A stretch of DNA of 64,000 bases. It comes from Jiella pelagia. GTDB taxonomy: Bacteria; Pseudomonadota; Alphaproteobacteria; Rhizobiales; Rhizobiaceae. Shown one piece after another: positions 1,022-62,418 of this stretch (position 1 is the stretch's first letter; the number at the start of each line of letters is the position of its first letter). The stretch is taken from positions 1,433,501 to 1,497,500 of the forward strand of contig NZ_CP114029.1 in NCBI RefSeq assembly GCF_026898155.1, read 5' to 3'. A program made the translations under genes and the position numbers. The notes under the pieces were generated by a model. That model saw only the letters and a program-made list of their open reading frames with translations, had not been told where the DNA came from and did no database searches.

Positions 1022-2398
1022 GGTCGCGTCCGTCAACGTGGTGGAAATTTGGGTGTGACTGAAGCGGCTCCGTTTCAGGCGGCTGCGGTGGAAATACGTG
1101 CGGTTTCGGGTTTGGTTCTGGCGGCCATGAGTTCGGCCATCGGTTCGGTCTGCATGTAGCGGTTCTGCGTCTGCCATTCGTCGTTGGCCTCGAGGAGGAC
1201 GGCGCCGATGAGGCGGATGATGGAGGCTCTCGTTCGGGAAGATGCCGACGACATCGGCGCGCCGCTTCACCTCCTTGTTCAGGCGCTCCAGGGAATTGGT
1301 CGAATGGATCCGGGTCCGGTGCTGGCTGGGGAAGTCCAGATGCGCCAGCACGTCGGTCTCGCTGTCGTCGATGAAGCCGCCGAGCTTGGGGCATTTTCCC
1401 CGGAGTTGGTCGGCGACTTGGCGCAGCGCTTGGGCGGCGCCGGCGCGATCGGGCTGGATGAAAGCCTGGCGTAGCGCCGCCGCCGCCATGCTCTGCTGCG
1501 CCTTCGGGACATAGGACAGGGCGTTGCGCATCCAGTGGACGCGGCAGCGCTGCCAGGAGGCGCTGAACACCCGGCGGATGGCCGCCTTCAGCCCTTCGTG
1601 GGCATCCGAGATCACCAGCTTCACGCCGGACAGGCCGCGGCGCACCAGGCTCTTGAGGAAGGTCGACCAGAAGGTCTCCGCTTCCGACGGGCCGATGTGG
1701 AGGCCCACGATCTCGCGCTTGCCGTCCGTGTTCACCGCCACGGCGATTATCGCCGCGACCGAGATGATCCTTCCGCCTTCGCGCTGCTTCAAATAGGTCG
1801 CGTCCAGCCAGAGATAGGGCCAGTCGCCGGCAAGCGGGCGATCGAGGAAGCCGCCGACGCGCTCGTCGATGTCCTTGCACAGCTTCGATACCGTGCTCTT
1901 GCCGATCCCCGACAGCCCCATGGCCTGCACCAGATCGTCGACCCTGCGAGTCGAGACGCCGCTGATCCAGGCCTCCTGGATGACTGCGACCAAGGCCTTC
2001 TCCGAGAGCTTCCTCGGTTCCAGAAACGGCGGGAAGTAGCTGCCCTGCCGAAGCTTGGGGATACGAAGCTGTAAGGAGCCGAGCCGCGTGTCGAGCGAAC
2101 GGTCCCGGTAGCCGTTGCGATAGGTCGCCCGCTCCAGGGTGCGTTCATGACGCCCGGCGCCGATCATGCCCTCCACGTCGGCCTCCATCAGAAGCTGCAT
2201 AACACTCTCGGCAATCGTCCTCAGGAAATCGCCGTCTCCTGCTTTCGCCAGAAGCTCGGCAAGCGGTAGTCTGTCCTCGGTCATCGGGTGCTCCGGTCAG
2301 GTTGAAGTCTCGCAACTCCACCTTAGCCGGCCAATCCGGTGGCCACCTCCGTCACACCTTCTGACGTCCGATTTTCCACCACCAGCGCGGACACTACC
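1022..2398 (-). mobile_element. IS256-family insertion sequence
   Basis: The element consists of one transposase gene between imperfect terminal inverted repeats of about 26 bp. The left tip reads GGTCGCGTCC and the right tip, on the opposite strand, GGTAGTGTCC; both continue inward to a shared GTGGTGGAAA block. The length of about 1.38 kb is usual for IS256-type elements. The flanks look similar (CCGGTTGCA on the left, CCGGTTTTGCA on the right) but are not an exact target duplication, so the outermost bases are uncertain by a few positions. The element sits between the DUF559 gene and repeat copy B. Confidence 0.75.
1075..2284 (-). pseudogene. IS256-family transposase, one frameshift at GAGCCTC
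   Basis: Mutator-type DDE transposase. The first frame starts MTEDRLPLAELLAKAGDGDF and contains the family core, including the DATY motif (WLDATYLKQREGGR), the SDAHEGLKAAI block and the HWMRNAL block before NSLERLNKEVKRRA. At 1223–1229 (GAGGCTC on the plus strand) the frame shifts by one base. Deleting one base restores IIRLIGAVLLEANDEW and a normal C-terminus, ending at 1075 with 402 residues. As written, the protein would lose the end of its catalytic domain. This is one of eleven breaks at the same motif, so it may be an artefact rather than inactivation. Confidence 0.85.
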
Positions 2399-2435
2399 CC
2401 GGTTTTGCAACGTGGATTGTTCACCTCCGGCACGG

Positions 2436-2696
2436 GCGCCCTCTCGCCCCCTTGTGGGAGAGAACGTCATTCCAAGGAGTTGGGCCGAGCGCAGCGAGGT
2501 CCAAACCTTGAGAATGACAAGAGAGGGGTTTCACCGGTAACGCTTGCCACCATCGACGGCAAGACGAGCGCCACGACACGATCTACAACGTCGGCAGGAC
2601 ATGGCGCCGGTGAAACCCCTCTCTTGCGATTTCTATCACTTGGCTTCGCCAAGATGATGAAATCGCTTTCTCTCCCACAAGGGGGAGAGAGGGCGC
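2436..2696. repeat. 261-bp structured repeat, copy B (MITE-like)
   Basis: This is the same length and orientation as copy A and nearly identical to it. The 31-bp terminal arms (2436–2466, 2666–2696) differ from each other at two positions, while the nested arms of the second hairpin are perfect here. Similarity to copy A continues about 28 bp beyond the right end into GTCAGCGTCTTTCGATC, which is also the last codons of the DUF559 gene, so a short DUF559 3' remnant seems to follow. The remainder of 2285–2901 (IS right end and leader of the stress-protein gene) shows nothing else I can name. Confidence 0.8.
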
Positions 2697-2901
2697 CCCG
2701 ATTTCGCTGTCAGCGTCTTTCGATCAGCGATCGGGCGGCGGTCGCTTTTGGCATACGGATGCAACTATAATTGCCGTAGCGTCCAGCCCGCTTCACGATG
2801 TAACCTGTCCATGACGCCCTGCGGCAGACCCCGTGACCTCGCATGCACCGTTGAGCATCGTCGGCATGACGGCGGAAGTTCCAGAGCCGGAAGGACGGAA
2901 G

Positions 2902-3756
2902 ATGTTGAGAAAAATACTCGTTCCCGTGCGTGGCGACGGAATGGTGGCCAGTGTTCTGGGCCATGCTGCGGCGCTGGCAAAGCGGCACCGGGCCCATGTC
3001 GTCGTCGCCCATTGCCGCGCCCAGGCCAAGGACCTGATGCCGTCTGGCGTGCCCTTGCCGGCATTTGCGCGCACGACGTTTCTCAAACAGGCACAGGATC
3101 TGGCCGACCAGCAGGAGCAGCATCTCAGGAGCGTGCTTCATCGCCTCACCGCCGAATTCGGCCTCACTGAAGGCGATCCGACGCTGGGCGAGGCTGCAAG
3201 CTGCGCCTTCATCGAGCAGAACGGGCGGATGGCAGACGTCATCCGTTCCAATGGCCGCCTCGCCGATCTGGTCGTCGTCGCCAAGCCGGACCGCGATCGC
3301 AATCTGGGAACCAACTCGCTGAAGGCAGGCCTCTTCGGCACTGGCCGGCCGGTCCTGATGTGCCCAGGACAAAAACCGGCGCCCAGCGATCTCGGCGCGC
3401 GGATCGCCATTGGCTGGAACGGCTCGCTCGAAGCGGCTCGCGCGGTGGCGCTGACGACCGATCTTCTCCAGGCCGCCGCCGAGGTCACCATCCTGACAGG
3501 CGGTGACGGCGAGACCCACGGCACGACGACCGAGGATCTCGTCGACTATTACCGCCTGCGTGGTATCGCCGCCAGCATCGTGAAGTTCGACGCCCGCAAT
3601 CCCGGCGCGGCACTTTTGGAAAAGACGGTGGAGATCGGCGCTGATCTTCTGGTCATGGGAGCCTATGGTCAAAGCCACGAACGCGAGACGCTTTTTGGCG
3701 GCAATACGCAGACAGTCGTCGACCGAGCGACCATTCCGGTCCTGTTCGTGCACTAA
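2902..3756 (+). CDS. Universal stress protein family protein
   Basis: A 284-residue cytoplasmic protein made of an N-terminal half beginning MLRKILVPVRGDGM and a C-terminal UspA domain starting near DLGARIAIGWNGS. The C-terminal half keeps the nucleotide-binding pattern of the family, GAYGQSHERETLFGG, followed by a terminal strand IPVLFVH. The ATG at 2902 was preferred over an earlier one at 2833, because the family begins with the hydrophobic first strand and a GGAAGGACGG stretch precedes it. The gene stands just before the tctC-B-A transporter on the same strand, about 135 bp away, and probably has its own promoter. Specific role unknown. Confidence 0.85.
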   Translation: MLRKILVPVRGDGMVASVLGHAAALAKRHRAHVVVAHCRAQAKDLMPSGVPLPAFARTTFLKQAQDLADQQEQHLRSVLHRLTAEFGLTEGDPTLGEAASCAFIEQNGRMADVIRSNGRLADLVVVAKPDRDRNLGTNSLKAGLFGTGRPVLMCPGQKPAPSDLGARIAIGWNGSLEAARAVALTTDLLQAAAEVTILTGGDGETHGTTTEDLVDYYRLRGIAASIVKFDARNPGAALLEKTVEIGADLLVMGAYGQSHERETLFGGNTQTVVDRATIPVLFVH

Positions 3757-3891
3757 CGCAAATTTTGCCTGAAGAAAAAAATGGTTGAAACTTTCCTAGC
3801 GTAATTTAACGTCATGAGAACTTGTTGCGGAACGGGACCAACCCGGGTCGAAGAACTACGCTCAACAAGCCTTAACGGGAGGAAGATGGTG

Positions 3892-4863
3892 ATGAAGACG
3901 ACCAAACGTACGCTTTTGAAATTGGCTCTTGCTGCCGTGATCGTGGGAACGCCCGCCGCAGCAGTCGCCGAAGACTGGGAGCCGACACGGCCGATCGACT
4001 TTGTCATCATGGCCGGTCCGGGCGGCGGGGCCGACCAGATCGCCCGCTTCATCCAGTCAGTGGCCGAAAAGCAGGACATGACCAATCGCCCGCTGGTGCC
4101 CAACAACAAGGGCGGAGGCTCGGGCGCCGAGGCGCTGCTCCACGTCGGCAAGGCACGCGATGCCGATCATACATTGCTGGTGACGCTGAATTCTTTCTTC
4201 ACCACGCCGCTGCGGCAGGAGAAGCTCGGCATCGATACCGAGACCTTCACCCCGATCGCCATGATGGGCGTCGATCCGTTCGTCTTGTGGGTGCACAAGG
4301 ACGAAGGCATCACGGATTTCGAAAGTTTCGTCGAAAAGGTGAAGACCGCGGACGGACAATGGGTCATGGGTGGCACCGGCAAGGGCCAGGAAGACTCCAT
4401 CGTCATCGCCTATCTGTCGGACGCCTTCGGCCTGAAGATCAAGTACATCCCCTATGATGGCGGCGGCGCCGTTGCCAAGGATCTCGCCGGCAGGCAGGTC
4501 ATGGCGACCGTGAACAATCCCGCCGAAGCCAAGGGCTTCTACGATTCCGGCGATTTCGTGCCGCTTCTCGCCTTCTCCGACGAGCGACTGCCGGCCTATC
4601 CCGACGTGCCGACCATGAAGGAGAAGGGCCACGACTTCTCCTATTACAACCAGCGCGCCGTCGTCGGTGCCCCTGGAATGTCCGACGAAGCCGCGGCCTA
4701 TTACCGGGACCTGTTCTCGAAGATCTATGAAACTGCGGAGTGGCAGGGGTATCTGAAGTCGGAAAGCCTTTCACCGCTGTGGATGAATGCCGAGGAGCAG
4801 CGGGCCTATTGGGCCAAGCAGGTGGAGAACCACAAGAAACTGCTCGCGGCCATGGAAAACTAG
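3892..4863 (+). CDS. tctC: Tripartite tricarboxylate transporter substrate-binding protein (TctC family)
   Basis: Periplasmic solute receptor of a tripartite tricarboxylate transporter. A signal peptide (MKTTKRTLLKLALAAVIVG, cleaved after the AVA motif) is followed by the Bug/TctC core with RPIDFVIMAGPGGGADQIAR near the N-terminus and the conserved NNKGGGSGAEALLH loop. The ATG at 3892 has a GGGAGGA ribosome site at ideal distance; ATG 3886 is too close to it. The protein delivers a carboxylate (citrate, tartrate, glutarate or similar; not determinable here) to the TctA–TctB membrane pair that follows. GAGGCTC at about 4106 is in frame here and not a disruption. Confidence 0.9.
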   Translation: MKTTKRTLLKLALAAVIVGTPAAAVAEDWEPTRPIDFVIMAGPGGGADQIARFIQSVAEKQDMTNRPLVPNNKGGGSGAEALLHVGKARDADHTLLVTLNSFFTTPLRQEKLGIDTETFTPIAMMGVDPFVLWVHKDEGITDFESFVEKVKTADGQWVMGGTGKGQEDSIVIAYLSDAFGLKIKYIPYDGGGAVAKDLAGRQVMATVNNPAEAKGFYDSGDFVPLLAFSDERLPAYPDVPTMKEKGHDFSYYNQRAVVGAPGMSDEAAAYYRDLFSKIYETAEWQGYLKSESLSPLWMNAEEQRAYWAKQVENHKKLLAAMEN

Positions 4864-4899
4864 GCTCCGGCCCGAAATCCGGCAGGGAGCGCACGCAGG

Positions 4900-5403
4900 A
4901 TGAAAACCGGCGAAATCGTCACGGCGGGCCTTTTGGCGCTCTTCTCCGCCTATTTGATGTGGAAGAGCGCCGAACTCCCCGTCGGCTATATCCGCGGAGA
5001 AGGGCCCGGCGGCGGCGCCTGGCCGTTCTGGCTGTCGGCGATCATGCTGATCTGCGCCTGCATGGTTGCCGTCAATGGCTGGCGCGGCCGCACGACACCA
5101 TCCGGCTCGACAGAGCCGCTGCTCGATTCCCACGGCTGGAAGATGCTGGTCATGGTCGGCGGGGCGATCGTCGTCTTCGTCGGCCTGATCAGCATCATTT
5201 CCATGTACGGCGCCATAGCGGTGTTCCTGCTCTACTACACGCTTTATCTCGGCCGGCACGGCTGGGGGCTGAGCCTGTCGATTTCGCTGCTGACGCCGAT
5301 CCTGTTCTTCTTCTTCTTCGAGGGGGCGATGCAGATCACCATGCCGAAGGGCATGTCGTTCACCGACCCCGTCTTCGATATCCTCTACGACATCATCTAC
5401 TGA
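4900..5403 (+). CDS. tctB: Tripartite tricarboxylate transporter TctB family protein
   Basis: Small membrane subunit of the same transporter, 167 residues with four predicted transmembrane segments: one at the N-terminus (ITAGLLALFSAYLM-like), one around FWLSAIMLICACMVAVNGW, and two in the second half near MLVMVGGAIVVFVGLI and LSISLLTPILFFFFF. The gap to tctC is 36 bp. It helps form the inner-membrane translocation unit with TctA. The stop at 5403 is followed by a palindromic intergenic repeat before tctA, which is unusual inside an operon. Confidence 0.88.
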   Translation: MKTGEIVTAGLLALFSAYLMWKSAELPVGYIRGEGPGGGAWPFWLSAIMLICACMVAVNGWRGRTTPSGSTEPLLDSHGWKMLVMVGGAIVVFVGLISIISMYGAIAVFLLYYTLYLGRHGWGLSLSISLLTPILFFFFFEGAMQITMPKGMSFTDPVFDILYDIIY

Positions 5404-5410
5404 TCAGGGC

Positions 5411-5515
5411 GAAGAGCATGATCCGGAAAAGTGGGAACCGGTTTTCCGAAAAGATCATGCGCAGACAAAGAATTGGAGCGGAGATGTGATCGGGGCTGAT
5501 CGCATCGCGTTCTAG
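5411..5515. repeat. Rhizobial palindromic intergenic element between tctB and tctA
   Basis: The core at about 5415–5460 is a strong palindrome with arms GCATGATC and GATCATGC around a GGAAAAGTGGGAACCGGTTT centre. It is followed by GACAAAGAATTGGAGCGG and a TAG-ended tail. Very similar sequences recur between genes in Mesorhizobium, Sinorhizobium and relatives, where they belong to the intergenic mosaic (RIME-like) class. In the messenger it would form a hairpin between tctB and tctA. Whether it acts as an RNA processing or attenuation site is inference. Confidence 0.7.
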
Positions 5516-5530
5516 CCGGGGGGGCGGATC

Positions 5531-7045
5531 TTGAACGAAATCCTGTCGCATCTGGGAGACGGCATGCTGGTGTCGATCCAGCCGCTGAACCTGATGCTGA
5601 TTTTCGTCGGCGTGGCAGTCGGCTTGTTCATCGGTGCGATGCCGGGCCTTGGCTCGGTCAACGGTGTCGCGATCCTGTTGCCGATCACCTTCCTGGTGCC
5701 GGCGGGCTCGGCCATCATCTTCCTTGCCGCCATCTACTATGGTGCCATGTATGGCGGCGCGATCTCATCGATCACGCTGGGGATTCCCGGAGCCTCGACG
5801 GCGGTTGCCACCACCTTTGACGGAAGGCCGCTGGCCTTGCAGGGCCGGGCGAGCTTGGCGCTCGTCACCGCCGCCCTGGCGTCTTTCGTCGGCGGGACCG
5901 TCGCCAACGTGTTGTTCACGCTGTTTGCGCCAGTCCTTGCGACGGTTGCCCTGTCCTTCGGCCCCCCGGAGATTTTCGCGCTGATGCTGCTCGCCTTCGC
6001 CACCTTCGTGGGGCTTGGCGGCGACGACATCCCCAAGACGATCTTCTCGATCTGTTTCGGCCTCGTCCTCGCGTCGGTCGGCTTCGACCAGATTTCCGGC
6101 GAGCCGCGCCTCGTTCTGTTCGAGATGGACGGGTTTTTGCAGGGCATCGGTTTCCTCGTTCTCGCCATCGGCGTCTACGGGATCGGCGAGATGCTGTGGA
6201 CCATCGAGCAGACTCGCGGCGAGGTGACCACGACCAATGCCAACCTGACCGTGAAGGGAATGTTCTCCGACCTTCGCGAGGCCAGCCAGCGGGCCTGGAA
6301 GGGCACTGTGATCGGCTCGTTCCTCGGCTTCTTCGTCGGCGTTCTGCCGGCTGCGGGGGCAACGCCGGGATCGCTGATGTCGTATGGCGTCGCCAAGATG
6401 GTCTCGCGCCGCCCCGAAACCTTCGGCAAGGGCAACCCGGACGGCATCTCGGCGCCGGAATCGGCCAACAACTCCGCCTCGACCGGCGCGATGCTGCCGA
6501 TGCTGACGCTCGGCATTCCAGGGTCGCCGACCACCGCGATCCTCTTGGGAGGCATGGTGATCTGGGGGCTGACGCCCGGCCCGCGTCTGTTCATCAACGA
6601 GACGGAGTTCGTCTGGGGCCTGATCGGCTCCTTCTACATCTCCAACGTCGCGGCGCTGCTGATCAACCTCGCCTTCATCCCGCTGTTCGTGTGGATGCTG
6701 CGGATGCCGTTCACGATCCTCGCGCCGATGATCTTCGTCCTGTCGATCGCCGGTGGCTATGCGGCGACCCGCAACATGCACGACATCTGGATGATGGTCG
6801 TTTTCGGCCTCGGCGCGTTCTTCCTGCGCAAGCTCGACTATCCCTTGGCGCCCGCAGTGCTGGCCATCGTTCTCGGCCCCATCGCCGAGCCGACGCTCCG
6901 CCAGTCCCTGCTTCTGTCTTCCGGCGATCCTTCGATCTTCTTCACCCGCCCGATCGCCGGGCCGATCACGGTCATCGCGCTGATCCTGATCTTCCTGCCT
7001 GCTCTGCAATTCGTGCGTCGCCGACGGAGAAAGGCGATGGCCTGA
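5531..7045 (+). CDS. tctA: Tripartite tricarboxylate transporter permease (TctA family)
   Basis: Large membrane subunit, 504 residues, with 11–12 transmembrane segments. Family landmarks are present: GLFIGAMPGLGSVNGVAIL near the N-terminus, ISSITLGIPGASTAVATTFD, and a repeat of the same idea in the second half (GVLPAAGATPGSLMSYG, TLGIPGSPTTAILLGG). The only plausible start is a TTG at 5531 preceded by a G-rich ribosome site; its length then equals the family norm. It completes the TctCBA system. The C-terminus ends in a basic tail (RRRRRKAMA). Substrate not predictable. Confidence 0.9.
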   Translation: MNEILSHLGDGMLVSIQPLNLMLIFVGVAVGLFIGAMPGLGSVNGVAILLPITFLVPAGSAIIFLAAIYYGAMYGGAISSITLGIPGASTAVATTFDGRPLALQGRASLALVTAALASFVGGTVANVLFTLFAPVLATVALSFGPPEIFALMLLAFATFVGLGGDDIPKTIFSICFGLVLASVGFDQISGEPRLVLFEMDGFLQGIGFLVLAIGVYGIGEMLWTIEQTRGEVTTTNANLTVKGMFSDLREASQRAWKGTVIGSFLGFFVGVLPAAGATPGSLMSYGVAKMVSRRPETFGKGNPDGISAPESANNSASTGAMLPMLTLGIPGSPTTAILLGGMVIWGLTPGPRLFINETEFVWGLIGSFYISNVAALLINLAFIPLFVWMLRMPFTILAPMIFVLSIAGGYAATRNMHDIWMMVVFGLGAFFLRKLDYPLAPAVLAIVLGPIAEPTLRQSLLLSSGDPSIFFTRPIAGPITVIALILIFLPALQFVRRRRRKAMA

Positions 7046-7183
7046 AATCCGTGAGCCAACGATCGGCATCGATCACGCTCGCTTTTACCCCGGCACACGC
7101 CATAAAGTTCTGGTCCAAGCGTCCGCTGCGGGCCGCCCGCCGGACGGATGGGCATCGGCACACCATCCCAGGAGAAACCGACG

Positions 7184-7672: not shown

Positions 7673-7683
7673 GAAAGGGGATC

Positions 7684-7708
7684 AGGCGCCGGCGATCGTC
7701 CGGCGCCT
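7684..7708. terminator. Hairpin between convergent genes
   Basis: Nine-base arms AGGCGCCGG (7684–7692) and CCGGCGCCT (7700–7708) enclose a seven-base loop between the stop codons of the cupin gene and the oppositely transcribed LLM gene. No run of T follows on either strand, so this may be a bidirectional or Rho-assisted end rather than a classical intrinsic terminator. Confidence 0.5.
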
Positions 7709-7722: not shown

Positions 7723-8740
7723 TCACCGCCAGCCCATTGCCGGCGCGACGTGGCTGAGGATCGCCTCGATGACATGGGCGTTGTAGGAGACGCCGAGCTG
7801 GTTCGGCACGGTGAGGAGCAGCGTGTCGGCCTCGGCGATCGCCTCGTCCCCCTTCAGTTCCTCGACCAGCCGGTCTGGCTCGGCGGCATAGGAGCGGCCG
7901 AAGATCGCCCGCATGTTGTCGATGACGCCGATCTGGTCGCCGTCCTTGCCGCGGCCGAAATAGGCCCGGTCCTCGTTGCTCACCAAGGGGAAGATCGAGC
8001 GCGAGACCGAAACGCGGGGCTCGCGCCCATGGCCGGCGGCCGCGAAGGCCTCGCGGTAGCGGCGGATCTGCTTGGCCTGCTGGACGTGGAAGGGCTCGCC
8101 GCTCTCGTCTTCTTTCAAGGTCGAGCTCTGCAGGTTCATGCCGCGCTCGGCGGCCCAGACGGCCGTGGCGTTCGACGCCGAGCCCCACCATATCCGCTCG
8201 CGCAAGCCTTCCGAATAAGGCTCGATGCGCAGCAGCCCCGGCGGGTTCGGAAACATCGGCCGCGGGCTCGGCTCGGCGAAGCCCTCGCCCTTCAGGACTT
8301 CCAGAAACACCTCGGCATGGCGCCGCCCCATCTCCGCGTCGCTCTCGCCTTCGGCGGGCGCATAGCCGAAATGGCGCCACCCCTCGATCACCTGCTCGGG
8401 CGACCCGCGCGAGATGCCGAGCTGCAGCCGCCCACCGGAGATGAGGTCCGCAGAGCCCGCGTCCTCGGCCATGTAGAGAGGATTCTCGTAGCGCATGTCG
8501 ATGACGCCGGTGCCGATCTCGATGCGCCTCGTCTTCGCGCCGACGGCGGCGAGCAGCGGAAAGGGCGAAGCGAGCTGGCGGGCGAAGTGATGGACGCGGA
8601 AATAGGCCCCGTCGGCGCCGAGGCTCCTCGGCCGCGACGGCGAGATCGATCGACTGCAGAAGAACGTCCCGAGCCGACTGGGTGCCCGACCGCGGCGAGG
8701 GCGTCCAATGCCCGAAGGAGAGAAAGCCGATCTTCTTCAT
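7723..8740 (-). pseudogene. LLM class flavin-dependent oxidoreductase, one frameshift at GAGCCTC
   Basis: Bacterial-luciferase-like monooxygenase that would use reduced flavin. The gene starts MKKIGFLSFGHWTPSPRSG at 8740. After AVAAEE the frame breaks at 8620–8626 (GAGGCTC on the plus strand), and removing one base gives AVAAEELGADGAYFRVHHFA and continues to a normal end at 7723 (338 residues). The remainder holds the family pattern RRIEIGTGVIDMRYENPLYM and GGRLQLGISRGSPEQVIEGW. A second GAGCTC in the same gene (8123–8128) is intact. As written it would be truncated after about 40 residues. Confidence 0.85.
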
Positions 8741-10534: not shown

Positions 10535-11389
10535 ATGACCAAGATCCTGGCCTGCGTCGACGGGTCGACCTATGCCGAGAGCGTCTGCGACCACGCCGCA
10601 TGGGCGGCGGGGCAGCTGGAAGTGCCCGTCGATCTCATCCATGCGCTCGGGCGCCGCGAGACATCGAGCCAGGCCATCGACTTTTCCGGCAATCTGGAAT
10701 TCGGCGAACGCGAGGCGCTTTTGGCCGAATTGTCGGAGCTCGACGAGAAGAAGTCGAAGGTGGCGGTCCGGCGTGGCCGGCTACTGCTCGATCAGGCGGG
10801 GGCCCGCGTGAAGGAACGCGTCGCAGCCAAGGTCGAGAAGCATCTGCGCAACGGCGACGTCGCCGATGCGATCTCCGACATGGAGGCCGAGGCGCGCCTC
10901 GTCGTCATCGGCAAGCGCGGCGAGGCCGCCGATTTCGCCAAGGGCCATCTCGGCTCCAATCTGGAGCGGGTGATCCGGGCAAGTGCAAAACCCGTGCTCG
11001 TCGCCTCGCGCGCGTTTAGGCCGATCCGGCGCTTCATGGTGGCGTTCGACGGCGGTCGAAGCGCCGGGACGATCGTCGAGAAGCTCGTTGCGAGCCCTCT
11101 TCTGGCCGGGGTGCCGTGCGAACTGTTCATGGTCGGCGAGCCGACGGGAGACGCCGGCGAGCGCCTAGGCGAGGCTCAGCGAAAGCTCAAGGAAGCCGGC
11201 TACGAGGTGACGGTGAAGACGGCCGTCGGCGACGCCGACGAGCTGATCGCCGAGCGGGTCGGCCAGGACGGGATCGACCTTCTGGTGATGGGCGCCTACG
11301 GCCATTCGCGCATCCGCCGGCTCATCGTCGGCAGCACGACGACGCAGATCATCCAGTCTTGCGCCATACCCGTTCTGGTCATTCGCTGA
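10535..11389 (+). CDS. Universal stress protein family protein (tandem domain)
   Basis: A 284-residue protein with two UspA-like halves. The first starts MTKILACVDGSTYAESVCDH and ends near SAKPVLVASR; the second starts RRFMVAFDGGRSAGTIVEK and ends with the nucleotide-binding loop GAYGHSRIRRLIVGSTT and IPVLVIR. It sits 10 bp after the SulP gene with GGGAGGAG upstream, so it is co-transcribed with it, and a SulP–Usp pair suggests a link between anion transport and stress signalling. It contains an intact GAGCTC (10736–10741), useful as a control for the GAGCTC anomaly. Confidence 0.88.
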   Translation: MTKILACVDGSTYAESVCDHAAWAAGQLEVPVDLIHALGRRETSSQAIDFSGNLEFGEREALLAELSELDEKKSKVAVRRGRLLLDQAGARVKERVAAKVEKHLRNGDVADAISDMEAEARLVVIGKRGEAADFAKGHLGSNLERVIRASAKPVLVASRAFRPIRRFMVAFDGGRSAGTIVEKLVASPLLAGVPCELFMVGEPTGDAGERLGEAQRKLKEAGYEVTVKTAVGDADELIAERVGQDGIDLLVMGAYGHSRIRRLIVGSTTTQIIQSCAIPVLVIR

Positions 11390-12253: not shown

Positions 12254-12283
12254 CCAGACATACGCAAGGACAGGGAACGGCCG

Positions 12284-23587: not shown

Positions 23588-24857
23588 ATGACCATCCAGA
23601 CGCCGATCGACACCATCGAGGCAGATCCCGCGCCGCGGCGAGCGACCGTCGGCGTCGATGTCGGCGGGGTGCTGGTGGGCGGCGGCGCGCCGGTGGTCGT
23701 CCAGTCGATGACCAATACCGACACCGCCGATGTCGACGCCACCGTGGCGCAGGTCGCGGCGCTGTCGAAGGCCGGCTCCGAGATCGTCCGCATCACCGTC
23801 GACCGCGACGAGAGCGCCGCCGCCGTGCCGAAGGTGCGCGAGCGGCTGGAGCGGCTCGGCCTCAACGTGCCGCTGGTCGGCGACTTCCACTATATCGGCC
23901 ACAAGCTTCTTGCCGATCATCCGGCCTGCGCCGAGGCGCTGGCGAAATACCGCATCAATCCAGGCAATGTCGGCTTCCGGGACAAGCGGGACAAGCAGTT
24001 CGCGGCGATCGTCGAGATGGCGATCCGCTACGACAAGCCGGTGCGCATAGGCGTCAACTGGGGCTCGCTCGACCAGGAGCTGCTGACCCGGCTGATGGAC
24101 GCCAACACCGCCTTGCCACAGCCGCGTTCGGCGCGGGCGGTGACGAGAGAGGCGATCATCCAGTCGGCGCTGATCTCGGCCGAGGCTCGCCGAGGAGATC
24201 GGCCTTGCCAAGAACCGCATCATCCTGTCGGCCAAGGTCAGCCAGGTGCAGGACCTCATCGCCGTCTACCGCGACCTCTCCCGGCGCACCGACCACGCGC
24301 TGCATCTCGGCCTGACCGAGGCGGGCATGGGCTCCAAGGGCATCGTCGCCTCGGCCGCCTCGATGGGCATCCTGCTGCAGGACGGCATCGGCGACACCAT
24401 CCGCGTGTCTCTCACCCCGGAGCCGAACGGCGATCGCACCCGGGAAGTGCAGGTCGCGCAGGAGCTGCTGCAGACCATGGGGTTCCGGCAGTTCCTGCCC
24501 GTCGTCGCCGCCTGTCCCGGCTGCGGGCGCACGACCTCGACGGTGTTCCAGGAGCTGGCCGAAAAGATCCAGAGCGACATCCGCGTCAACATGCCGGTTT
24601 GGCGGGAGAAGTATCCGGGCGTCGAGGCGCTGAACGTCGCGGTGATGGGCTGCATCGTCAACGGACCGGGCGAATCCAAGCATGCCGACATCGGCATCTC
24701 CCTGCCCGGCACCGGCGAGACGCCGGCGGCCCCCGTCTTCGTCGACGGCAGGAAGACGGTGACGCTGCGCGGGCCGAACATCGCCGCGGAATTCCAGGTG
24801 ATGGTCGCCGACTATATCGAGAACCGCTTCGGCAAGGGACGCGCCGCCGCCGAATGA
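23588..24857 (+). pseudogene. ispG: 4-hydroxy-3-methylbut-2-enyl diphosphate synthase, one frameshift at GAGGCTC
   Basis: Iron–sulfur enzyme of the non-mevalonate isoprenoid route that reduces methylerythritol cyclodiphosphate to HMBPP. The first frame carries [20 protein letters not shown] and [20 protein letters not shown]. At 24182–24188 (GAGGCTC) the frame shifts; removing one base restores [20 protein letters not shown] and the rest, with cluster ligands in [13 protein letters not shown] and the [11 protein letters not shown] motif. Corrected length is 422 residues. The stop overlaps the next start (ATGA). IspG is normally essential in organisms using this pathway, so true loss is unlikely. 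Confidence 0.9.
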
Positions 24858-25888
24858 CCGTTGCCTCCAGCGCCCCAGCCGCATCGCCGTCACGCCGCGC
24901 CCCCGGCGCGGGCTCGGCGCGTCGGCGGTTCGAAGCCGCGCTGATCGGGGCTCTCGGCCTTGTGGCTATGCTCGCCGCACCGGCTGCGGCCGAGACCATT
25001 CGCCCGGCAGGCAAGGCCGGCAACGTCGCAATTGCGCTTCCGGCGCTGGCCTATCCGCCCTCTCCGCCCCAGTTCGGGGCGGTCGACGCCGTCCCGGGCG
25101 AGACTGAAGCCGCCGACGAACCACCGGTGCGGCGCATCTGCCGGCTGATCGCACAAAATGCCGACGCGGTCGGCATGCCGCGGTCGTTCTTCGCTCGTCT
25201 GATCTGGAAGGAGAGCCGGTTCGACGCGAAGGCGCGATCGCCGGTCGGGGCGCAGGGCATCGCCCAGTTCATGCCCTACACCGCCGAAGAGCGCGGGCTC
25301 GACGACCCGTTCGATACGGCGGAGGCCATCCGCCATTCGGCGCTGTTCCTCGCCGATCTGAGATCGGACCTCGGCAATTGGGGACTTGCGGCCGCCGCCT
25401 ACAATGGCGGGCCCAACCGGGTGAAGCGCTGGATCGCCAGTGGCGGCCGCCTCCCCTATGAGACCGAGAACTACGTCGTGGCCATCACCGCCCGGCCGGC
25501 ACTCTGGTTTACCGAGGATGGCCGCGAGATCGAACCGCGGCCACTCGAGGAAGGCAAAAAGTTCGACGAATCCTGCGAACGCCTGCCGATCATCGAGAGC
25601 CGGTCGGTCTTCGCCTCGCTCGAGACCGGCGCGCCGATGAAGCCGTGGGGCGTGCAGGTCGCCGGCAATCCGAGCCAGTCGGTTGCCATGGCGATGTTTC
25701 GCCGGGTGCAGTCCAAGATGCCGGACCTTCTCGGCGGCAAAGCGCCGCTCGTCCTTCGCGAGCGGGCACCCGGCCGTGGCCGGATCTGGGCCGTGCGCAT
25801 CGGCGCCGACAGCCGCGGCGAGGCGAACCAGTTCTGCGTCAGGCTGAAGAGAGCCGGCGGGTCCTGCATCGTCATGAAGAACCGTTGA
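24854..25888 (+). CDS. Lytic transglycosylase domain-containing protein
   Basis: A 344-residue periplasmic murein lyase. The N-terminal signal segment (residues ~27–50, ending APAAAET) is preceded by an Arg-rich stretch. The SLT domain has the catalytic glutamate in [20 protein letters not shown] followed by [15 protein letters not shown] and [20 protein letters not shown]. The C-terminus ([20 protein letters not shown] through GGSCIVM) resembles a SPOR peptidoglycan-binding domain. Its ATG overlaps the ispG stop, so the two genes are co-translated; functional linkage is unclear. Confidence 0.88.
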
Positions 25889-35227: not shown

Positions 35228-36151
35228 GTGAAAGGCATCATCCTGGCCGGCGGCAGCGGCACGCGCCTGCATCCCATGACGTTGACGGCGTCGAAGCAGT
35301 TGCTTCCGGTCTATGACAAGCCGATGATCTACTACCCGTTGTCGACGCTCATGCTGGCCGGGATTCGGGAAATCCTGCTGATCTCGACGCCGCACGACCT
35401 GCCGCGCTTCAAGGCGCTTCTCGGCGACGGCAGCCGCATCGGCCTGAAGCTCGACTATGCCGAACAGCCGAGCCCCGACGGTCTCGCCCAGGCCTATCTG
35501 ATCGGCGAGGAATTCGTCGCTCGCGAAGCCTCGGCCTTGATCCTCGGCGACAATCTCTTCTACGGCCATGGCATGCCCTCGCTGATGCAGCACAGCATCA
35601 AGCGGGAGGACGGGGCGACGGTCTTTGCCTATCACGTCAACGATCCGGAACGTTACGGGGTGGTCTCCTTCGACACCGGCTTCCGCGCCACCTCGATCGA
35701 GGAGAAGCCGCAGAACCCGCAATCGAACTGGGCGGTCACCGGTCTCTACTTCTACGACGGCCGGGCCTCCGAGTTCGCCCGCGCCCTGAAGCCCTCGCCC
35801 CGCGGCGAACTCGAGATCACCGACCTCAACCGGATCTATCTGGAGGAAGGCACGCTGGAAGTCTCGCGCATGGGCCGCGGCTATGCCTGGCTCGACACCG
35901 GCACGCCGGATTCCCTTCTCGAGGCGGCCGAGTTCGTGCGCACGCTCGAGCATCGCCAGGGCTTCAAGATCGCCTGCATCGAGGAGATCGCCTTCGAGAT
36001 GGGGCTGATCGACCGCGACCAGCTGATGATGCTCGGCAAGGAGCCTCGGCAAGAGCAGCTACGGCCAGTACATCCAGCGCATCGCCCGCACCGAACGCTG
36101 AGCGGCGCCCATCGGCCGAGCCGGTGGGCCTCGGACGCGATGCCGTCCTGA
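35228..36151 (+). CDS. rfbA: Glucose-1-phosphate thymidylyltransferase, C-terminus changed by a one-base shift
   Basis: Makes dTDP-glucose, the first step toward dTDP-rhamnose. [20 protein letters not shown] is the nucleotide-binding start; I chose GTG 35228 because GGAG lies six bases before it. [16 protein letters not shown] and [20 protein letters not shown] confirm the family. At 36041–36047 (GAGCCTC) the frame shifts: as written the tail becomes unrelated and ends at 36151. Removing one base gives [20 protein letters not shown] and a stop at 36101, 290 residues, which is the family norm. The affected part is the last helix only, so activity might survive. Confidence 0.92.
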
Positions 36152-36343: not shown

Positions 36344-37432
36344 ATGGATGCACCGAACACCGATCTCGAGAAGCGCCACGTCAACCCGCGTCGGCATTCC
36401 AACGACGTGACCGAGCGGCGCATCGAGGAGGAAGGCTCGACGCTGACGGCGACGGAGCTGAGCGAGATCGAGCGCCGGCTGAGCCTCCGGCCGCTCGCGA
36501 TCTACGAGCTGGTGCGCCAGGAGGGCGAGGACGAACTCACCCGCCCGGTCTCAAGCCTTTGGTGGTCGGGCCTCGCGGCGGGGCTGTCGATCGGCTTTTC
36601 CGTCTTCACCCAGGCGGTGCTGCGCGCCTATCTGCCGGACACGCCCTGGCGCCCGCTGATCGAATGCTGGGGTTATTCGGTCGGCTTTCTCATCGTCATT
36701 CTCGGCCGCCAGCAACTGTTCACCGAGATCACGCTGACGGCGACGCTGCCGGTCCTCGCCCGGCCCAAGTGGATCGGGGTCAAGGCGCTGATCCGGCTGT
36801 GGTCCGTCGTCTTCACCGCCAACATGGTGGGCACCGCCGTCTATGGCGCCGGCATCGCCTTCGACGTTCTCGGAACGCCCGACATCACCGCCGCGGCCCT
36901 GGCAATTTCCCGCGAAGCCATGGAAGCAGGGCCGTGGTCGACGCTGCTGCGCGGCATCGTCGCCGGCTGGCTGATCGCCACCGTGGTCTGGGTGCTGCCG
37001 TCGGCGCAGAACTCCGGCTTCTTCGTCATCGCGCTCCTGACCTATCTGATCGCGCTGTTCCACCTGTCCCACATCGTGGCGGGATCGGTGGAGGCGATGG
37101 CGCTGATGTTTTCCGGCGAATTCATGCCGCACCACGCAATCTGGACCTTCTACCTGCCGGCCCTCGTCGGCAACGTCATCGGCGGCTCGGCGCTGTTCGC
37201 GCTGATCAGCTACGGCCAGGTGGCACCGGAGGCTCGATCGGCGGGGGAATTGAGGACTGAGCGAGCAGGGCGGCGAGGTCGCCTTGCCACCGGCCGCCAC
37301 CCTTCAGGCGTCGTCATTGCGGCCGCGGAGCCGGATCCACGCCTCTGCGGGAAAATGGTGCGCGAAACGCAACGGGCATGGATGCAGGAGTTCACCGGTG
37401 CATATCCTGATGTACGGGCTCGCGTGAGATAA
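36344..37432 (+). CDS. Formate/nitrite transporter family protein, C-terminal extension by a one-base shift
   Basis: Inner-membrane channel of the FNT family (YfdC-like), six transmembrane segments after a charged ~65-residue N-terminal tail. Landmarks are SLWWSGLAAGLSIGFSVFTQ, LGRQQLFTEITLTATLPVLA, LFHLSHIVAGSVEAMALMFS and the final FYLPALVGNVIGGSALFALI. At 37229–37235 (GAGGCTC) the frame as written runs on to 37432. Removing one base gives SYGQVAPELDRRGN and a stop at 37253, a total of 302 residues, matching where family members end. The extra 60 residues are Arg-rich and look like out-of-frame sequence. Substrate uncertain. Confidence 0.85.
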   Translation: MDAPNTDLEKRHVNPRRHSNDVTERRIEEEGSTLTATELSEIERRLSLRPLAIYELVRQEGEDELTRPVSSLWWSGLAAGLSIGFSVFTQAVLRAYLPDTPWRPLIECWGYSVGFLIVILGRQQLFTEITLTATLPVLARPKWIGVKALIRLWSVVFTANMVGTAVYGAGIAFDVLGTPDITAAALAISREAMEAGPWSTLLRGIVAGWLIATVVWVLPSAQNSGFFVIALLTYLIALFHLSHIVAGSVEAMALMFSGEFMPHHAIWTFYLPALVGNVIGGSALFALISYGQVAPEARSAGELRTERAGRRGRLATGRHPSGVVIAAAEPDPRLCGKMVRETQRAWMQEFTGAYPDVRARVR

Positions 37433-37872: not shown

Positions 37873-39462
<1,590 letters not shown>

Positions 39463-49071: not shown

Positions 49072-49893
49072 CCGACATTCTCGCCCGCATCCGCGACTAC
49101 AAGCTGGAAGAGATCGCCGCCGCGAAGACGAAGATGCCGCTCGCCGAGCCTCGACGCCCGCATCGCCGACGCCGAGCCGCCACGCGGCTTCCTCGCCGCA
49201 ATCACCCGGAAGGTCGAGGCCGGCGATCTGGCGCTGATCGCCGAGATCAAGAAGGCGAGCCCCTCCAAGGGCCTGATCCGCGAGGACTTCGACCCGCCGG
49301 CTCTCGCGGCGGCTTATGCTACGGGGGGCGCTACCTGCCTTTCCGTCCTCACCGATGAGCCTTCCTTCAAGGGCCGACCCGAATATCTCGGCCAGGCGAA
49401 GGCGGCGACCGGCCTGCCGGTGCTGCGCAAGGACTTCCTCTACGATCCCTATCAGGTCGCCGAGGCGAGGGCCTGGGGCGCCGACGCGATCCTGATCATC
49501 ATGGCAGCCGTGGCCGACGATGTAGCGCTCGCATTGGAAGCGGCGGCTGGACGCTACGGCGTCGACGTTCTGGTCGAGGTCCATGACGAGGCGGAGACCG
49601 AGCGGGCGCTTCGCCTCGCCTCGCCTCTGATCGGCATCAACAACCGCAATCTCAGGACCTTCGAGACCACCCTCGAAACCGCCGAGCGGCTCGCCAGGCT
49701 CGTCCCGGACGATCGCATCATCGTCGGCGAGAGCGGCATCTTCACCCACGTCGACTGCCTGAGGCTCGCCGAGCACGGCATCCGCAGCTTCCTCGTCGGC
49801 GAGAGCCTGATGCGCCAGGAAGACGTCGCCGACGCCACCCGCGTCCTCCTCGGCGGCCCGCGCAAGACGGGCCCGGTCGGAGACCGGTCGTGA
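49068..49893 (+). pseudogene. trpC: Indole-3-glycerol-phosphate synthase, one frameshift at GAGCCTC
   Basis: Closes the indole ring in tryptophan synthesis. After [20 protein letters not shown] and MPLAE the frame breaks at 49146–49152; removing one base gives [19 protein letters not shown] and the whole enzyme: [50 protein letters not shown] and IIVGESGIF. Corrected length 274 residues. As written only 27 genuine residues remain. Overlaps trpD (ATGA) and moaC (GTGA). Confidence 0.92.
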
Positions 49894-56487: not shown

Positions 56488-56629
56488 CGATCCCGCCGAT
56501 CATATTGCGCCGCAGCAGGCTTCGGCGCATAACTTGTCCAGCTCCAGCCTTTGGAGTAGGCAGGATGTGGCTGAAACGTGTGCGCTGCGAAAATCGCATT
56601 CGTGGCCGCGATTCATGAAAGGACGACGC

Positions 56630-57923
56630 ATGACAGAGCAGTCGGCGAAACTCAATTTCGGATCGACGGAAGCCGGTCTGGCGATGCGTAGCGGCACCCT
56701 CGGTCCGGACGTGATCGACGTCACCACCCTCTACAAGCAGGGCGGCGTATTTACCTACGATCCCGGGTTTTCATCGACGGCTTCCTGCGAATCCAAGATC
56801 ACCTATATCGACGGCGACGAGGGCATCCTGCTCCATCGCGGCTATCCGATCGACCAGTTGGCCGAACGCGGCGACTTTCTCGAGACCTGCTACCTCCTGC
56901 TCTATGGCGAACTGCCGACGCCGCGGGAAAAGGACGATTTCGTCTACCGCGTGACGCGGCACACGATGATCCACGAGCAGATGAGCCGCTTCTACACCGG
57001 CTTCCGGCGTGATGCCCATCCGATGGCCGTGATGTGCGGTTCGGTCGGCGCGCTCTCGGCTTTCTACCACGATTCGACCGACATCGCCGATCCGCACCAG
57101 CGGATGGTGGCGAGCCTTCGCATGATCGCGAAGATGCCGACGATCGCGGCGATGGCCTACAAGTACCATATCGGTCAGCCCTTCGTTTATCCGCGCAACG
57201 ATCTCTCCTACGCGGAAAACTTCCTGCACATGTGCTTCGCCGTGCCGTGCGAGCCCTACCGGATCAACCCGGTGCTCGCCCGGGCAATGGACCGCATCTT
57301 CATCCTCCATGCCGATCACGAGCAGAACGCTTCGACCTCGACGGTGCGGCTCGCCGGCTCGTCGGGCGCCAACCCCTTCGCCTGCGTCGCCGCCGGCATC
57401 GCCTGCCTTTGGGGCCCAGCTCATGGCGGCGCCAACGAGGCAGCGCTCAACATGCTGATGGAGATCGGCTCGAAGGACCGCATCCCGGAGTTCATCGCCA
57501 GGGCCAAGGACAAGAACGATCCGTTCCGCCTGATGGGCTTCGGCCACCGGGTCTACAAGAACTACGACCCGCGCGCCAAGATCATGCAGCAGACCTGTCA
57601 CGAGGTGCTCGACGAGGCTCGGCATCAAGGACGATCCGCTGCTCGAGGTGGCGATGGAGCTAGAGCGGATCGCCCTGACGGACGAGTATTTCATCGAGAA
57701 GAAGCTCTATCCGAACGTCGACTTCTACTCCGGCATCACGCTGAAGGCGCTGGGCTTCCCGACGACGATGTTCACGGTGCTCTTCGCCGTGGCGCGCACC
57801 GTCGGCTGGATTGCCCAGTGGAAGGAGATGATCGAGGATCCGCATCAGCGGATCGGCCGGCCGCGCCAGCTCTATACGGGTGCTCCGATGCGCGACTACG
57901 TTTCGCCTGAAGAGCGCGGCTGA
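56630..57923 (+). pseudogene. gltA: Citrate synthase, one frameshift at GAGGCTC
   Basis: Condenses oxaloacetate and acetyl-CoA at the entrance of the TCA cycle. Start [20 protein letters not shown], with GGACG just upstream; then [20 protein letters not shown], the catalytic histidine regions [40 protein letters not shown] and [20 protein letters not shown]. The frame is lost at 57614–57620 after HEVLDE; removing one base gives [20 protein letters not shown], then [20 protein letters not shown] and a 430-residue enzyme. As written the last quarter, including the catalytic aspartate region, would be wrong. A strong terminator follows. Confidence 0.95.
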
Positions 57924-57959
57924 ACCGCGCACGCGCATTTGCCGAGATCAGACATCAGG

Positions 57960-57985
57960 AAGCCCCGCCCTTCGGCGGGGCTTTG
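57960..57985 (+). terminator. Intrinsic terminator after gltA
   Basis: Arms AAGCCCCGCC and GGCGGGGCTT (a perfect 10-bp stem) with loop CTTC, followed by TGCTCT. It begins 37 bp after the gltA stop and ends that transcript before the GST gene. Confidence 0.85.
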
Positions 57986-58055
57986 CTCTATCTGGACCCG
58001 AAATGAACCATAGGCTCGAACCGGCGTCGGACCGGCGAAGCGGAAGAGGATAGTC

Positions 58056-58674
58056 ATGAAGATCTGGGGCCGCGCCAATTCCACCAATGTCCGCAAGGTG
58101 CTCTGGTGCGCCGAGGAGCCTCGGCCTCACCTTCGAGCGCGTCGACGCCGGCGGCATCTTCGGCATCGTCGATACGGACGAGTACCGGGCGCTCAATCCC
58201 AACGGCCGCGTACCGACGCTCCAGGATGGCGATGTGACGCTGTGGGAATCCAACACCATCGTCCGCTATCTCGCCCGCAAATACGGCAGCGAGCCCTTCG
58301 CTCCGGCCGCTCCCGAGGCGTGGGCGCAGGCCGACAAATGGATGGATTGGACGGCGACGACGCTCGGCGGCCCGTTCCGCGACGTGTTCTGGAACACCCT
58401 GCGCATGACGCCGGAGACCCGCGACGAGAAAGCACTGGTAAGCGGCCTTGCGGCCTGCGGCGAACTCCTCGCCATTCCCGAGGCCCAGCTCGGCAAGACG
58501 CCCTTCCTCTCCGGCGACGATCTCGGCTTCGGCGATATCCCGCTCGGCTGCGTCGCCTATGGCTGGTTCGAGATGCCGATCGCCCGCCCGGAGTTTCCCA
58601 ATCTCGCCGCCTGGTACGAGCGGCTGAAGCAGCGGCCGGCCTATCGATCGGGCGTGATGACGCCGCTGACGTGA
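58056..58674 (+). pseudogene. Glutathione S-transferase family protein, one frameshift at GAGCCTC
   Basis: Soluble transferase with a thioredoxin-like N-terminal domain and helical C-terminal domain. The frame starts MKIWGRANSTNVRKVLWCAEE and is lost at 58116–58122; removing one base gives LGLTFERVDAGGIFGIVDTD, then NGRVPTLQDGDVTLWESNTI and a 205-residue protein ending GVMTPLT. The early serine in ANSTNVRKVLW is the likely glutathione-activating residue. As written, translation leaves the correct frame after 21 residues. Substrate unknown. Confidence 0.88.
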
Positions 58675-58743
58675 GGCGGCGAAGGGTGTAGCTTCAGCGC
58701 GGATGCGAATTCGGCGAGGCAGAAGGTCGGAAAGGAACGAGCG

Positions 58744-59430: not shown

Positions 59431-59667
59431 ACCACCGGCCCGCGCAGTTTGGAATTACTCAAAGATACTCTCGGCTCACTGCGTCTGTTTCACATTCAGG
59501 CGAGAATTTCTTGTTCGAACGGCGACATTGTTGCGCCGAATCACCCGCTTTAAGTTGACGTAAGTCCTCATGTTTCCATAAAGGAGGCACGAGGAAAGGG
59601 CAGCGCCCGGCGCGTTCGAACGCCGGCGGCCCGCATTCGCCAACTTTCAGGGGACGGTCGGTCCACC

Positions 59668-60828
<1,161 letters not shown>

Positions 60829-60833
60829 ACGCC

Positions 60834-61316
60834 ATGGCCGTCAAGCTCGGTGGCGACGATGACGACAGCGGCGAGGTCTCCGAGATCAACGTCACGCCGT
60901 TCATCGACGTGATGCTCGTCCTCCTGATCATCTTCATGGTGGCCGCGCCGCTCTCGACGGTCGACGTGCCGGTGGATCTGCCGACATCGAACGCGCCGCC
61001 GCAGGATCGGCCGGACGAGCCGGTCTATCTCACCATCCAGGAGGATCTGTCGCTCAGCCTTGGTGAAGCCCCGGTGGCGCGCGAGGAACTGGCGAGCCGC
61101 CTCGATGCGACGACCCAGCAGAACCGCGACGAGCGCATCTTCCTGCGCGCCGACGGCTCCGTTCCCTATTCCGACATCATGGACGTGATGAACGCGCTTC
61201 GCAGCGCCGGCTATCTGAAGATCGGTCTCGTCGGCCTGGAGGATCCCGCGCGGGCGGAGGCAGCAAGCGCCCGCCCCACCGCCGATCCCGCACCCGGCGG
61301 CACCGAGCAGCAGTAG
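60834..61316 (+). CDS. exbD: Biopolymer transport protein ExbD
   Basis: Partner of ExbB. One transmembrane helix near the N-terminus carries the proton-conducting aspartate in EINVTPFIDVMLVLLIIFMV, followed by a periplasmic domain (SLSLGEAPVAREELASRLDA; RADGSVPYSDIMDVMNALRS). 160 residues. Lies between exbB and tonB with gaps of 5 and 6 bp, so one operon. Confidence 0.94.
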   Translation: MAVKLGGDDDDSGEVSEINVTPFIDVMLVLLIIFMVAAPLSTVDVPVDLPTSNAPPQDRPDEPVYLTIQEDLSLSLGEAPVAREELASRLDATTQQNRDERIFLRADGSVPYSDIMDVMNALRSAGYLKIGLVGLEDPARAEAASARPTADPAPGGTEQQ

Positions 61317-61322
61317 GCCGAC

Positions 61323-62418
61323 ATGGCGCGCCGCAAGAACGAACCATCGACTTCGAACCCCTTCGCTGGCCATTCTCGCGGCCGCAGTGTCGAACTCTGG
61401 CTGATCGCCGGCCTCGTGGTGCTCATTGCCCATGGTGCGGCCGCCTATGCGCTGATGACCAACGTTCCAGAGGCGCAGCCGCAGGGCGCCCAGGAAGCCG
61501 TTCTGATCGATCTTGCGCCGCCGCCCGAATCGCAGGAGTCCCAGGCGGTCGAGGACGCGGCACCGGCGCCTGAGACCGTGGAGACGCCGGATGCTGCGCC
61601 CTCGGAGCCCGAAGCCAAGGCGCCGGAAACCGCCGCGCCTCCCGAACCGGAGCCAGAGCCGGCACCCGATCCGGAACCCGTTCAGCCACCCGAACCCGAG
61701 CTGCCGGAGCCCGAGCAGGTCCAGCCGCCCGAGCCGGTCGAGCCTGCCGTCGAAGAACCCCAGGAGATTCGGCCCGAGGAGGCGGTGGCACCGCCGGAGC
61801 CTCCATCCAGAGCCTATTCCCGAGGTGGAGGAAACCGTCCCTCCTCCGGCGGACGCCGTGCCCCTTCCCACGCCTTCGCCGGAGATCGAAGAGCCCGAAG
61901 AGCCCGAGCCGGACACAGCCGCTCTCCCGCTCAACGTCCCACTTCCGACCGCGCGGCCGACACCGCCCCGTCCCGTGCGCGAGGCCGTTCGACAGAAGCC
62001 GCGGGAGACCAAGCGCGCGGCGCCGCGTCGGGCCGAAGCCAAGAAGCCCGCGCCGAAGCGCGAACAGGCCCGCCAGCGCCGCTCCGCCCAACCCTCCGTC
62101 GCCTCGCGCGGCCAGTCCCGGCGCCAGGCCTCGCAAGGCGCCAGCGTCTCGCGCGCGGCATTGGCCCGCTGGCAATCCCAGGTCCAGGCCCGGCTGAACC
62201 GCTACAGCCGCAGCTTTTCCGGTCGTGGCTCGGGAACGACGCGCATCGCCTTTTCGATGGACGGCAATGGCCGCGTGACCAGCGTGCGCGTCGCCGGATC
62301 GAGCGGCAATTCGACGCTCGATGGCCTGGCGGTTCAGCTGGTGCGGCGGGCGAGCCCCTTCCCCGCCCCGCCCTCGGGCAATCGGGTGTCACTGACGGTG
62401 CCGGTACGGATCCGCTGA
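61323..62418 (+). pseudogene. tonB: TonB energy transducer, one frameshift at GAGCCTC
   Basis: Carries the proton-motive energy from ExbBD to outer-membrane receptors. An N-terminal helix (SVELWLIAGLVVLIAHGAAA) is followed by a long Glu/Pro-rich spacer. The frame shifts at 61797–61803 in EAVAPPE; removing one base restores LHPEPIPEVEETVPPPADAV, a basic stretch and the TonB C-terminal fold (RLNRYSRSFSGRGSGTTRIA; FSMDGNGRVTSVRVAGSSGN; LVRRASPFPAPPSGNRVSLT), total 364 residues. As written the receptor-contacting domain is lost. Confidence 0.9.

Follow-up and report, generated by a model that had tools for sequence, protein, structure and literature searches.

The assembled genome of Jiella pelagia (5.95 Mb on three contigs, C1, C2 and C3) almost certainly carries a recurrent sequencing-consensus error, in which the palindrome GAGCTC is written with one extra central G or C. 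The resulting heptamers, GAGGCTC and GAGCCTC, are referred to here as GAG-S-CTC. We analyzed a stretch of 64,000 nucleotides of this genome (C1:1433501-1497500; the window), in which a sequence-only reading had reported eleven gene-breaking frame changes, all located at GAG-S-CTC, and combined this with comparisons at the level of the whole genome and of the genus. The frame changes very likely represent a systematic consensus artefact bound to the motif and not features of the organism. Considering the complete chain of events, we regard it as probable that the extra base is a consensus error set off by a chemical modification of GAGCTC. The error itself is indicated by two observations: a deficit of GAGCTC that nearly equals the excess of GAG-S-CTC, and repeat copies that differ in nothing but the core of the motif.

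Genome-wide, GAGCTC occurs 353 times in J. pelagia, compared to 702-1,945 times in nine congeners (G001-G009, drafts of about 30-100 contigs each), and GAG-S-CTC, counted on both strands, occurs 2,175 times, compared to 443-1,076 times in the same nine genomes. Expectations for this genome were scaled from the nine congeners, with the reversed sequence serving as control. About 1,571 GAGCTC sites were expected (range over congeners 1,210-1,740), which corresponds to a deficit of about 1,218, and about 1,027 GAG-S-CTC (916-1,100), which corresponds to an excess of about 1,148. As the two numbers match, about 76% of the GAGCTC sites appear to be expanded. Counting the motifs against expectation had been proposed as a check together with the original observation, and the outcome, depletion with a matching excess, is in agreement with it. 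The same holds for the claim that expansion is independent of the strand, as the numbers for the forward and the reverse strand are equal (1,097 and 1,078 GAG-S-CTC).

Deficit and excess are present on all three contigs; C2 contains 11 GAGCTC, 78 CTCGAG and 83 GAG-S-CTC, and C3 contains 10, 70 and 56, respectively. At 0.15, the GAGCTC/CTCGAG ratio ranks lowest in each of two genome sets (31 and 35 genomes). By z-score, GAGCTC is also the most depleted of all 6-mers (20 vs 128 expected, comparing 464 kb of this genome with 741 kb of congeners), which excludes chance, and with 34 occurrences vs 280 expected it ranks as the most under-represented palindrome of all 64 in 720 kb taken from outside the window.

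Repeats within one genome can be used as natural replicates. We therefore compared the cores of repeat copies with identical 60-nt flanks in a sample of 852 kb, with element names assigned from matches. Three copies of an IS21 element (C1:1398508-1400836, C2:93867-96195 and C2:127722-130050) match over 2,329 bp at all positions but one. This position is the central letter of GAG?CTC, with G, T and C in the three copies, respectively. An IS110-type element shows GAGGCTC on C1 and GAGCTC on C3, and a repeated helicase-type gene on C2 shows GAGGCTC in one copy and GAGCCTC in the other. Altogether, five repeat groups contain the motif, and the core is discordant in three of them; in the other two, all copies show GAG-S-CTC, possibly as a natural sequence. 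For the other 63 palindromes, none of 469 repeat groups differed in the core (Fisher p 6e-7 vs the motif). Generic 7-mer cores, for which the groups overlap one another, differed in 160 of 24,158 cases (Fisher p 3e-6 vs the motif). Every expanded copy compared is one base longer than its plasmid homologues, which come from Shinella, Sinorhizobium, Roseibium and Xanthobacter; the unexpanded C3 copy of the IS110-type element is of the same length as its Xanthobacter homologue. A genuine frameshift is expected to keep a stable, inherited letter, which was not observed among the IS21 copies. Because the letter varies at one palindrome only and between otherwise identical copies, it is best interpreted as a consensus call that remained undecided. 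Together with the matching deficit and excess, these copies strongly support the base-calling or consensus error that the sequence-only reading had suspected.

Within the window, all eleven heptamers were found where they had been reported, and the exact motif positions bear out that GAGCTC is intact at only three places (Table 1). In total, the window holds 27 GAG-S-CTC (11 GAGGCTC and 16 GAGCCTC), including 16 that had gone unmentioned. For comparison with relatives, we aligned stretches of six congeners (G002, G003, G006, G007, G008 and G009), which are largely collinear with the window. Judged by pyrG, the genome is placed near Aurantimonas (best named match Aurantimonas manganoxydans, 93%). 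At the ten listed sites covered by up to six of these congeners, 38 of 38 site-by-congener comparisons show one base fewer in the motif, with the congeners reading GAGCTC or a substituted form of it, so the heptamers are not shared by the relatives. The eleventh site, at 1223, lies outside the congener-aligned stretches; here, one base fewer was found in both of two plasmid homologues (Aureimonas sp. SA4125 and Sphingobium yanoikuyae) and also in two diverged copies of the transposase element elsewhere in the same genome. Thus, congeners or, at 1223, plasmid homologues have one base fewer at all eleven positions, as the reported frame changes imply, but the list did not cover all heptamers of the window. 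Of the 16 unlisted ones, ten show no gap within the motif when aligned to congeners, three are poorly aligned (11171, 23409 and 31732) and three are uncovered (4115, 5790 and 39544). The ten ungapped cases led us to reject the idea that all GAG-S-CTC are expansions. Apart from this, the Aureimonas plasmid NZ_AP025033.1 carries at 24352-25828, with no gene listed at this place, an IS256-type copy of about 89% identity to the transposase region of the window.

The reading frame was followed with an annotation-free phase test, which compares the dominant mod-3 phase of substitutions relative to congeners on both sides of a site. Codon phase shifts by +1 across nine of the ten covered listed sites, but is unchanged across 11 of 13 covered unlisted GAG-S-CTC and across all three GAGCTC sites. 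The two exceptions among the unlisted sites are 19238 (C1:1452738), with a gap outside the motif, and 23409 with its poor alignment. The listed site without a shift is 49146, for which the upstream flank partly precedes the gene, and phase dominance is weak on one side at 36041, 37229, 38189 and 58116 and downstream at 8620. Behind the breaks, the codon-phase bias persists in the shifted phase, which indicates that no decay has set in; the loss of coding constraint that marks a genuine pseudogene was not seen, as the bias continues at nine of the ten covered sites. In line with the broken frames, the Pfam pieces of GcpE, enolase and citrate synthase abut at the breaks. A frame-aware alignment of congener proteins recovered five of the listed sites and missed the other six with the thresholds used. 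As a control, the six congeners were put through this alignment as well; over about 193 kb of their covered coding sequence, six frame changes were called, and not one of these was at GAG-S-CTC.

These data also bear on the possibility that the insertions are real. A blunt GAG^CTC cutter acting on its own chromosome, followed by end joining that adds one untemplated nucleotide, would account for the fixed centre and for the variable G, C or T among the IS21 copies. Such a scenario would require about 1,150 events without any decay behind the breaks, with enolase hit twice and gltA and ispG hit as well, and yet the repeat copies would have to stay identical in the rest of their sequence. A living cell is not expected to have enolase (with two breaks), gltA and ispG all broken. 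We consider this scenario highly improbable, and real mutation was rejected because of the repeat-copy comparison and because no decay was seen.

Frame changes away from the motif are rare in the window. Of the 11 supported frame changes in its congener-aligned part, ten sit at the motif and the remaining one is at 46486. This site does not involve GAGCTC (context GGCGTGTCTCGACGAGCG), has one base fewer in five of five congeners with an agreeing phase test, and is either a real mutation or an isolated error. Frame differences from congener proteins were further noted at 12266 (2/2), 34518 (2/3) and 46140 (2/4), none of them at the motif; the one at 12266 could be a gene-start effect.

Table 1. 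Intact and expanded GAGCTC sites of the window, and the candidate modification genes outside it. Plain numbers are window positions; positions with the prefix C1 refer to the contig.
Feature	Position	Strand	Observation
GAGCTC, not expanded	8123..8128		exact motif; codon phase unchanged
GAGCTC, not expanded	10736..10741		exact motif; codon phase unchanged
GAGCTC, not expanded	63252..63257		exact motif; codon phase unchanged
GAGGCTC, frame break in transposase gene	1223..1229	minus	Transposase_mut profile 18-357 of 379 ends at break
GAGGCTC, frame break in luciferase-like monooxygenase gene	8620..8626	minus	one base fewer in 2/2 congeners; Bac_luciferase 36-231 begins at break
GAGGCTC, frame break in ispG	24182..24188	plus	one base fewer in 5/5 congeners; GcpE 3-151 / 156-341 across two frames
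GAGCCTC, frame break close to end of nucleotidyl transferase gene (RfbA in the sequence-only reading)	36041..36047		one base fewer in 5/5 congeners; NTP_transferase in upstream piece
GAGGCTC, frame break close to end of formate/nitrite transporter gene	37229..37235		one base fewer in 4/4 congeners; Form_Nir_trans in upstream piece
GAGCCTC, second frame break in enolase	38189..38195	minus	one base fewer in 6/6 congeners; phase shift +1
GAGCCTC, first frame break in enolase	38598..38604	minus	one base fewer in 6/6 congeners; Enolase_C 2-137 / 144-280 across two frames
GAGCCTC, frame break close to start of trpC	49146..49152	plus	one base fewer in 5/5 congeners; IGPS 22-253 in downstream piece; phase test negative
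GAGGCTC, frame break in gltA	57614..57620	plus	one base fewer in 2/2 congeners; Citrate_synt 1-276 / 280-357 across two frames
GAGCCTC, frame break in glutathione S-transferase gene	58116..58122	plus	one base fewer in 2/2 congeners; GST_N 41-76 and GST_C in downstream piece
GAGCCTC, frame break in TonB gene	61797..61803	plus	one base fewer in 1/1 congener; phase shift +1; TonB_2 in downstream piece
PF00145 (C5) methyltransferase	C1:1356652-1357947	minus	192 bits; sole PF00145 in genome; within 432-codon open frame
Methyltransferase and split MTaX1 gene	C1:1356649-1359227		outside window; Pfam matches

A modified GAGCTC is the likely trigger of the error. The suspicion arises because the error keeps to one exact palindrome without strand preference and on all contigs, as the site of an enzyme would. 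Three traits expected of an error mediated by modification were observed: a single motif is affected, this occurs genome-wide, on both strands and on all replicons, and copies of the same sequence are called differently. In such a mechanism, GAGCTC would be present throughout the actual DNA and the genes would be intact. The motif would carry a modified base, in the simplest case the central cytosine on both strands, to which the doubling of the central G or C would point. The modified base would then disturb the signal or the kinetics of long reads, with the result that the base caller writes the central G or C twice. In a weaker step of this proposal, the modifying enzyme would be the only PF00145 cytosine methyltransferase of the genome.

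A fault of the caller or polisher that misreads an unmodified GAGCTC in its context would produce the same extra letter without any modification. The outcome varies with the flanking bases, as a context fault would predict: among 43 intact sites of this genome, 14 have no CG formed at either flank, compared to 21 of 205 in congeners, which indicates that such sites stay intact more often. What decides between an added G and an added C was not apparent from the flank profile of the aligned sites, for which the sample is too small. On the other hand, eight other genomes of 1-3 contigs (G039, G042, G044, G313, G391, G534, G701 and G753), which may come from other platforms, keep GAGCTC, with GAGCTC/CTCGAG ratios of at least 0.51 vs 0.15 here. 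A context fault would also have to single out one enzyme-like site, since the repeat copies of the other palindromes never differed in the core in the 852-kb sample. Taken together, a fault of this kind without modification appears unlikely.

Errors concentrated at one motif have precedents. In nanopore data, Dcm sites (CCAGG/CCTGG) made up about 70% of the consensus errors of the then-current callers, which was ascribed to a model untrained on modified bases (PMC6591954). In comparison to the Dcm errors, as far as they are described in the accessible part of that study, the motif here is a different one, a single central base is added and little else is wrong in the window except 46486. Similarly, in five Listeria nanopore genomes, errors were tied to a single short motif, GCAGC or GCTGG depending on the lineage; each genome had 1,533-5,670 such errors, which were ascribed to a modification not covered by training (PMC10687267). 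According to the available text of the same report, these errors are mismatches, with indels excluded as their source, whereas one-base insertions with frame breaks at a palindrome are found here. Modification of the motif itself has been reported as 5mC at GRGCYC, which contains GAGCTC, in Propionibacterium freudenreichii (PMC11649196) and as cytosine methylation at GAGCTC in one clade of marine viruses (PMC9516812). At least as these two reports present it in their accessible parts, which do not describe insertion errors at the motif, cytosine methylation occurs in nature at GAGCTC, either by itself or as part of GRGCYC. A difference from these cases is that GGGCCC is not comparably depleted in J. 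pelagia. No insertion errors at GAGCTC were found in a search of literature titles and abstracts, which did not extend to REBASE and most subscription papers.

The palindrome GAGCTC is the target of restriction-modification systems of the SacI and EcoICRI type. The candidate in J. pelagia differs from these in that a C5 methyltransferase is paired with an MTaX1 protein, and GAGCTC is a putative target. The methyltransferase gene lies about 76 kb to the left of the window (Table 1), and the PF00145 members present in four of the nine congeners are 28-32% identical to it. Upstream of it, a gene is found in two overlapping frames, one with an MTaX1 piece and the other with a second piece, which matched no family and has an ECK stretch that looks nuclease-like by eye. 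The overlap of the two frames contains GAGCCTC, and homologues in G086, G788 and G527 are encoded in a single frame near the methyltransferase, which suggests that the MTaX1 gene was split by the same fault. MTaX1 has been described as potentially involved in the discrimination of modified DNA and as a component of several restriction-modification systems (PMC10853773). The methyltransferase and the MTaX1 gene perhaps form a type II restriction-modification pair. It is possible that this methyltransferase makes the GAGCTC modification.

The consensus error at a modified GAGCTC could also go back to an enzyme other than the PF00145 methyltransferase, which we regard as a serious option with a little less than an even chance; it is compatible with everything proposed above except the weakest step. 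The methyltransferase search covered PF00145 and PF01555 only. For PF01555, one strong match is present in each of the ten genus members, which we take to be CcrM, and J. pelagia has one extra gene; this second PF01555-type match is located at C1:3271647-3272504, inside a 615-codon frame. In favor of the PF00145 gene, it is the sole family member here, it has no close counterpart in the nine congeners and it adjoins the MTaX1 gene. The RE_SacI profile (PF09566) matched none of 31 genomes, but none of 14 control genomes either.

Homologues of the methyltransferase with 49-63% identity are present in 2 of 384 other genomes of the class (E 1e-60) and 6 of 396 other genomes of the order (E 1e-80); closer homologues exist elsewhere, such as one of 84% identity in Sphingomonas sp. 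HF-S4. Among plasmids and phages, the hits were limited to three plasmid records, each below 45% identity, with no phage found at E 1e-60. None of the eight carriers of a homologue has an excess of GAG-S-CTC like the one described here, nor is GAGCTC avoided by the group as a whole. The avoidance samples comprised six of the eight carriers, leaving out G394 and G753. The closest carriers with the partner gene were above expectation for GAGCTC (G086: 141 vs 89, G527: 128 vs 92), two others were mildly below it (G788: 37 vs 64, G701: 41 vs 90), and GAGCTC was nearly absent only in G610. In the 148-kb sample of G610, GGGCCC (1), CTCGAG (1), GGATCC (2) and GAGCTC (2) were all nearly lost, with more than 54 expected for each, which suggests strong restriction avoidance. 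In G701, with a 59% identical homologue, CTCGAG was found 17 times vs 100 expected in 200 kb, with GAGCTC only mildly depleted.

Several points weigh against a modified GAGCTC and its proposed enzyme. The comparative avoidance test did not support GAGCTC as the target of the methyltransferase, as the presence of homologues neither predicts nor accompanies avoidance of the motif, but homologues may differ in their target. The congeners are drafts and probably based on short reads, so their normal counts alone cannot separate a modification from a caller fault. The precedents concern mismatches at the Listeria motifs (PMC10687267) or errors at Dcm sites that are not further specified in the accessible text (PMC6591954), and not insertions at a 6-base palindrome. 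Finally, the assembly has the correct sequence at about one in four sites, for which the flank composition accounts only in part. The SacI-like methylation put forward by the sequence-only reading is plausible: the genome has a single PF00145 methyltransferase in an apparent restriction-modification pair, but the behavior of the homologue carriers gives no support for GAGCTC as its target. In a more far-reaching reading, to which we give somewhat less than an even chance, the epigenome of the strain would have left an imprint in its assembly, with GAGCTC modification by a pair of C5 methyltransferase and nuclease-like MTaX1 protein adding a consensus letter rather than changing one.

For J. 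pelagia, these results mean that an estimated 1,100-1,200 insertions in a species-representative genome are artificial, and many of them break genes, including glycolysis, citrate-cycle and isoprenoid genes. Its completeness of 84.97% (93-100% in the nine congeners), as well as inferences on pseudogenes, gene loss and phylogeny drawn from this genome, are likely affected. The repeat-copy test, which looks for identical flanks with a different core, exposes such errors from the assembly alone and names the motif. If the proposed explanation is true, modified motifs would be recoverable from public assemblies without reads, by combining repeat copies with palindrome counts. If GAGCTC is indeed modified, native genomic DNA of the strain is predicted to resist SacI.

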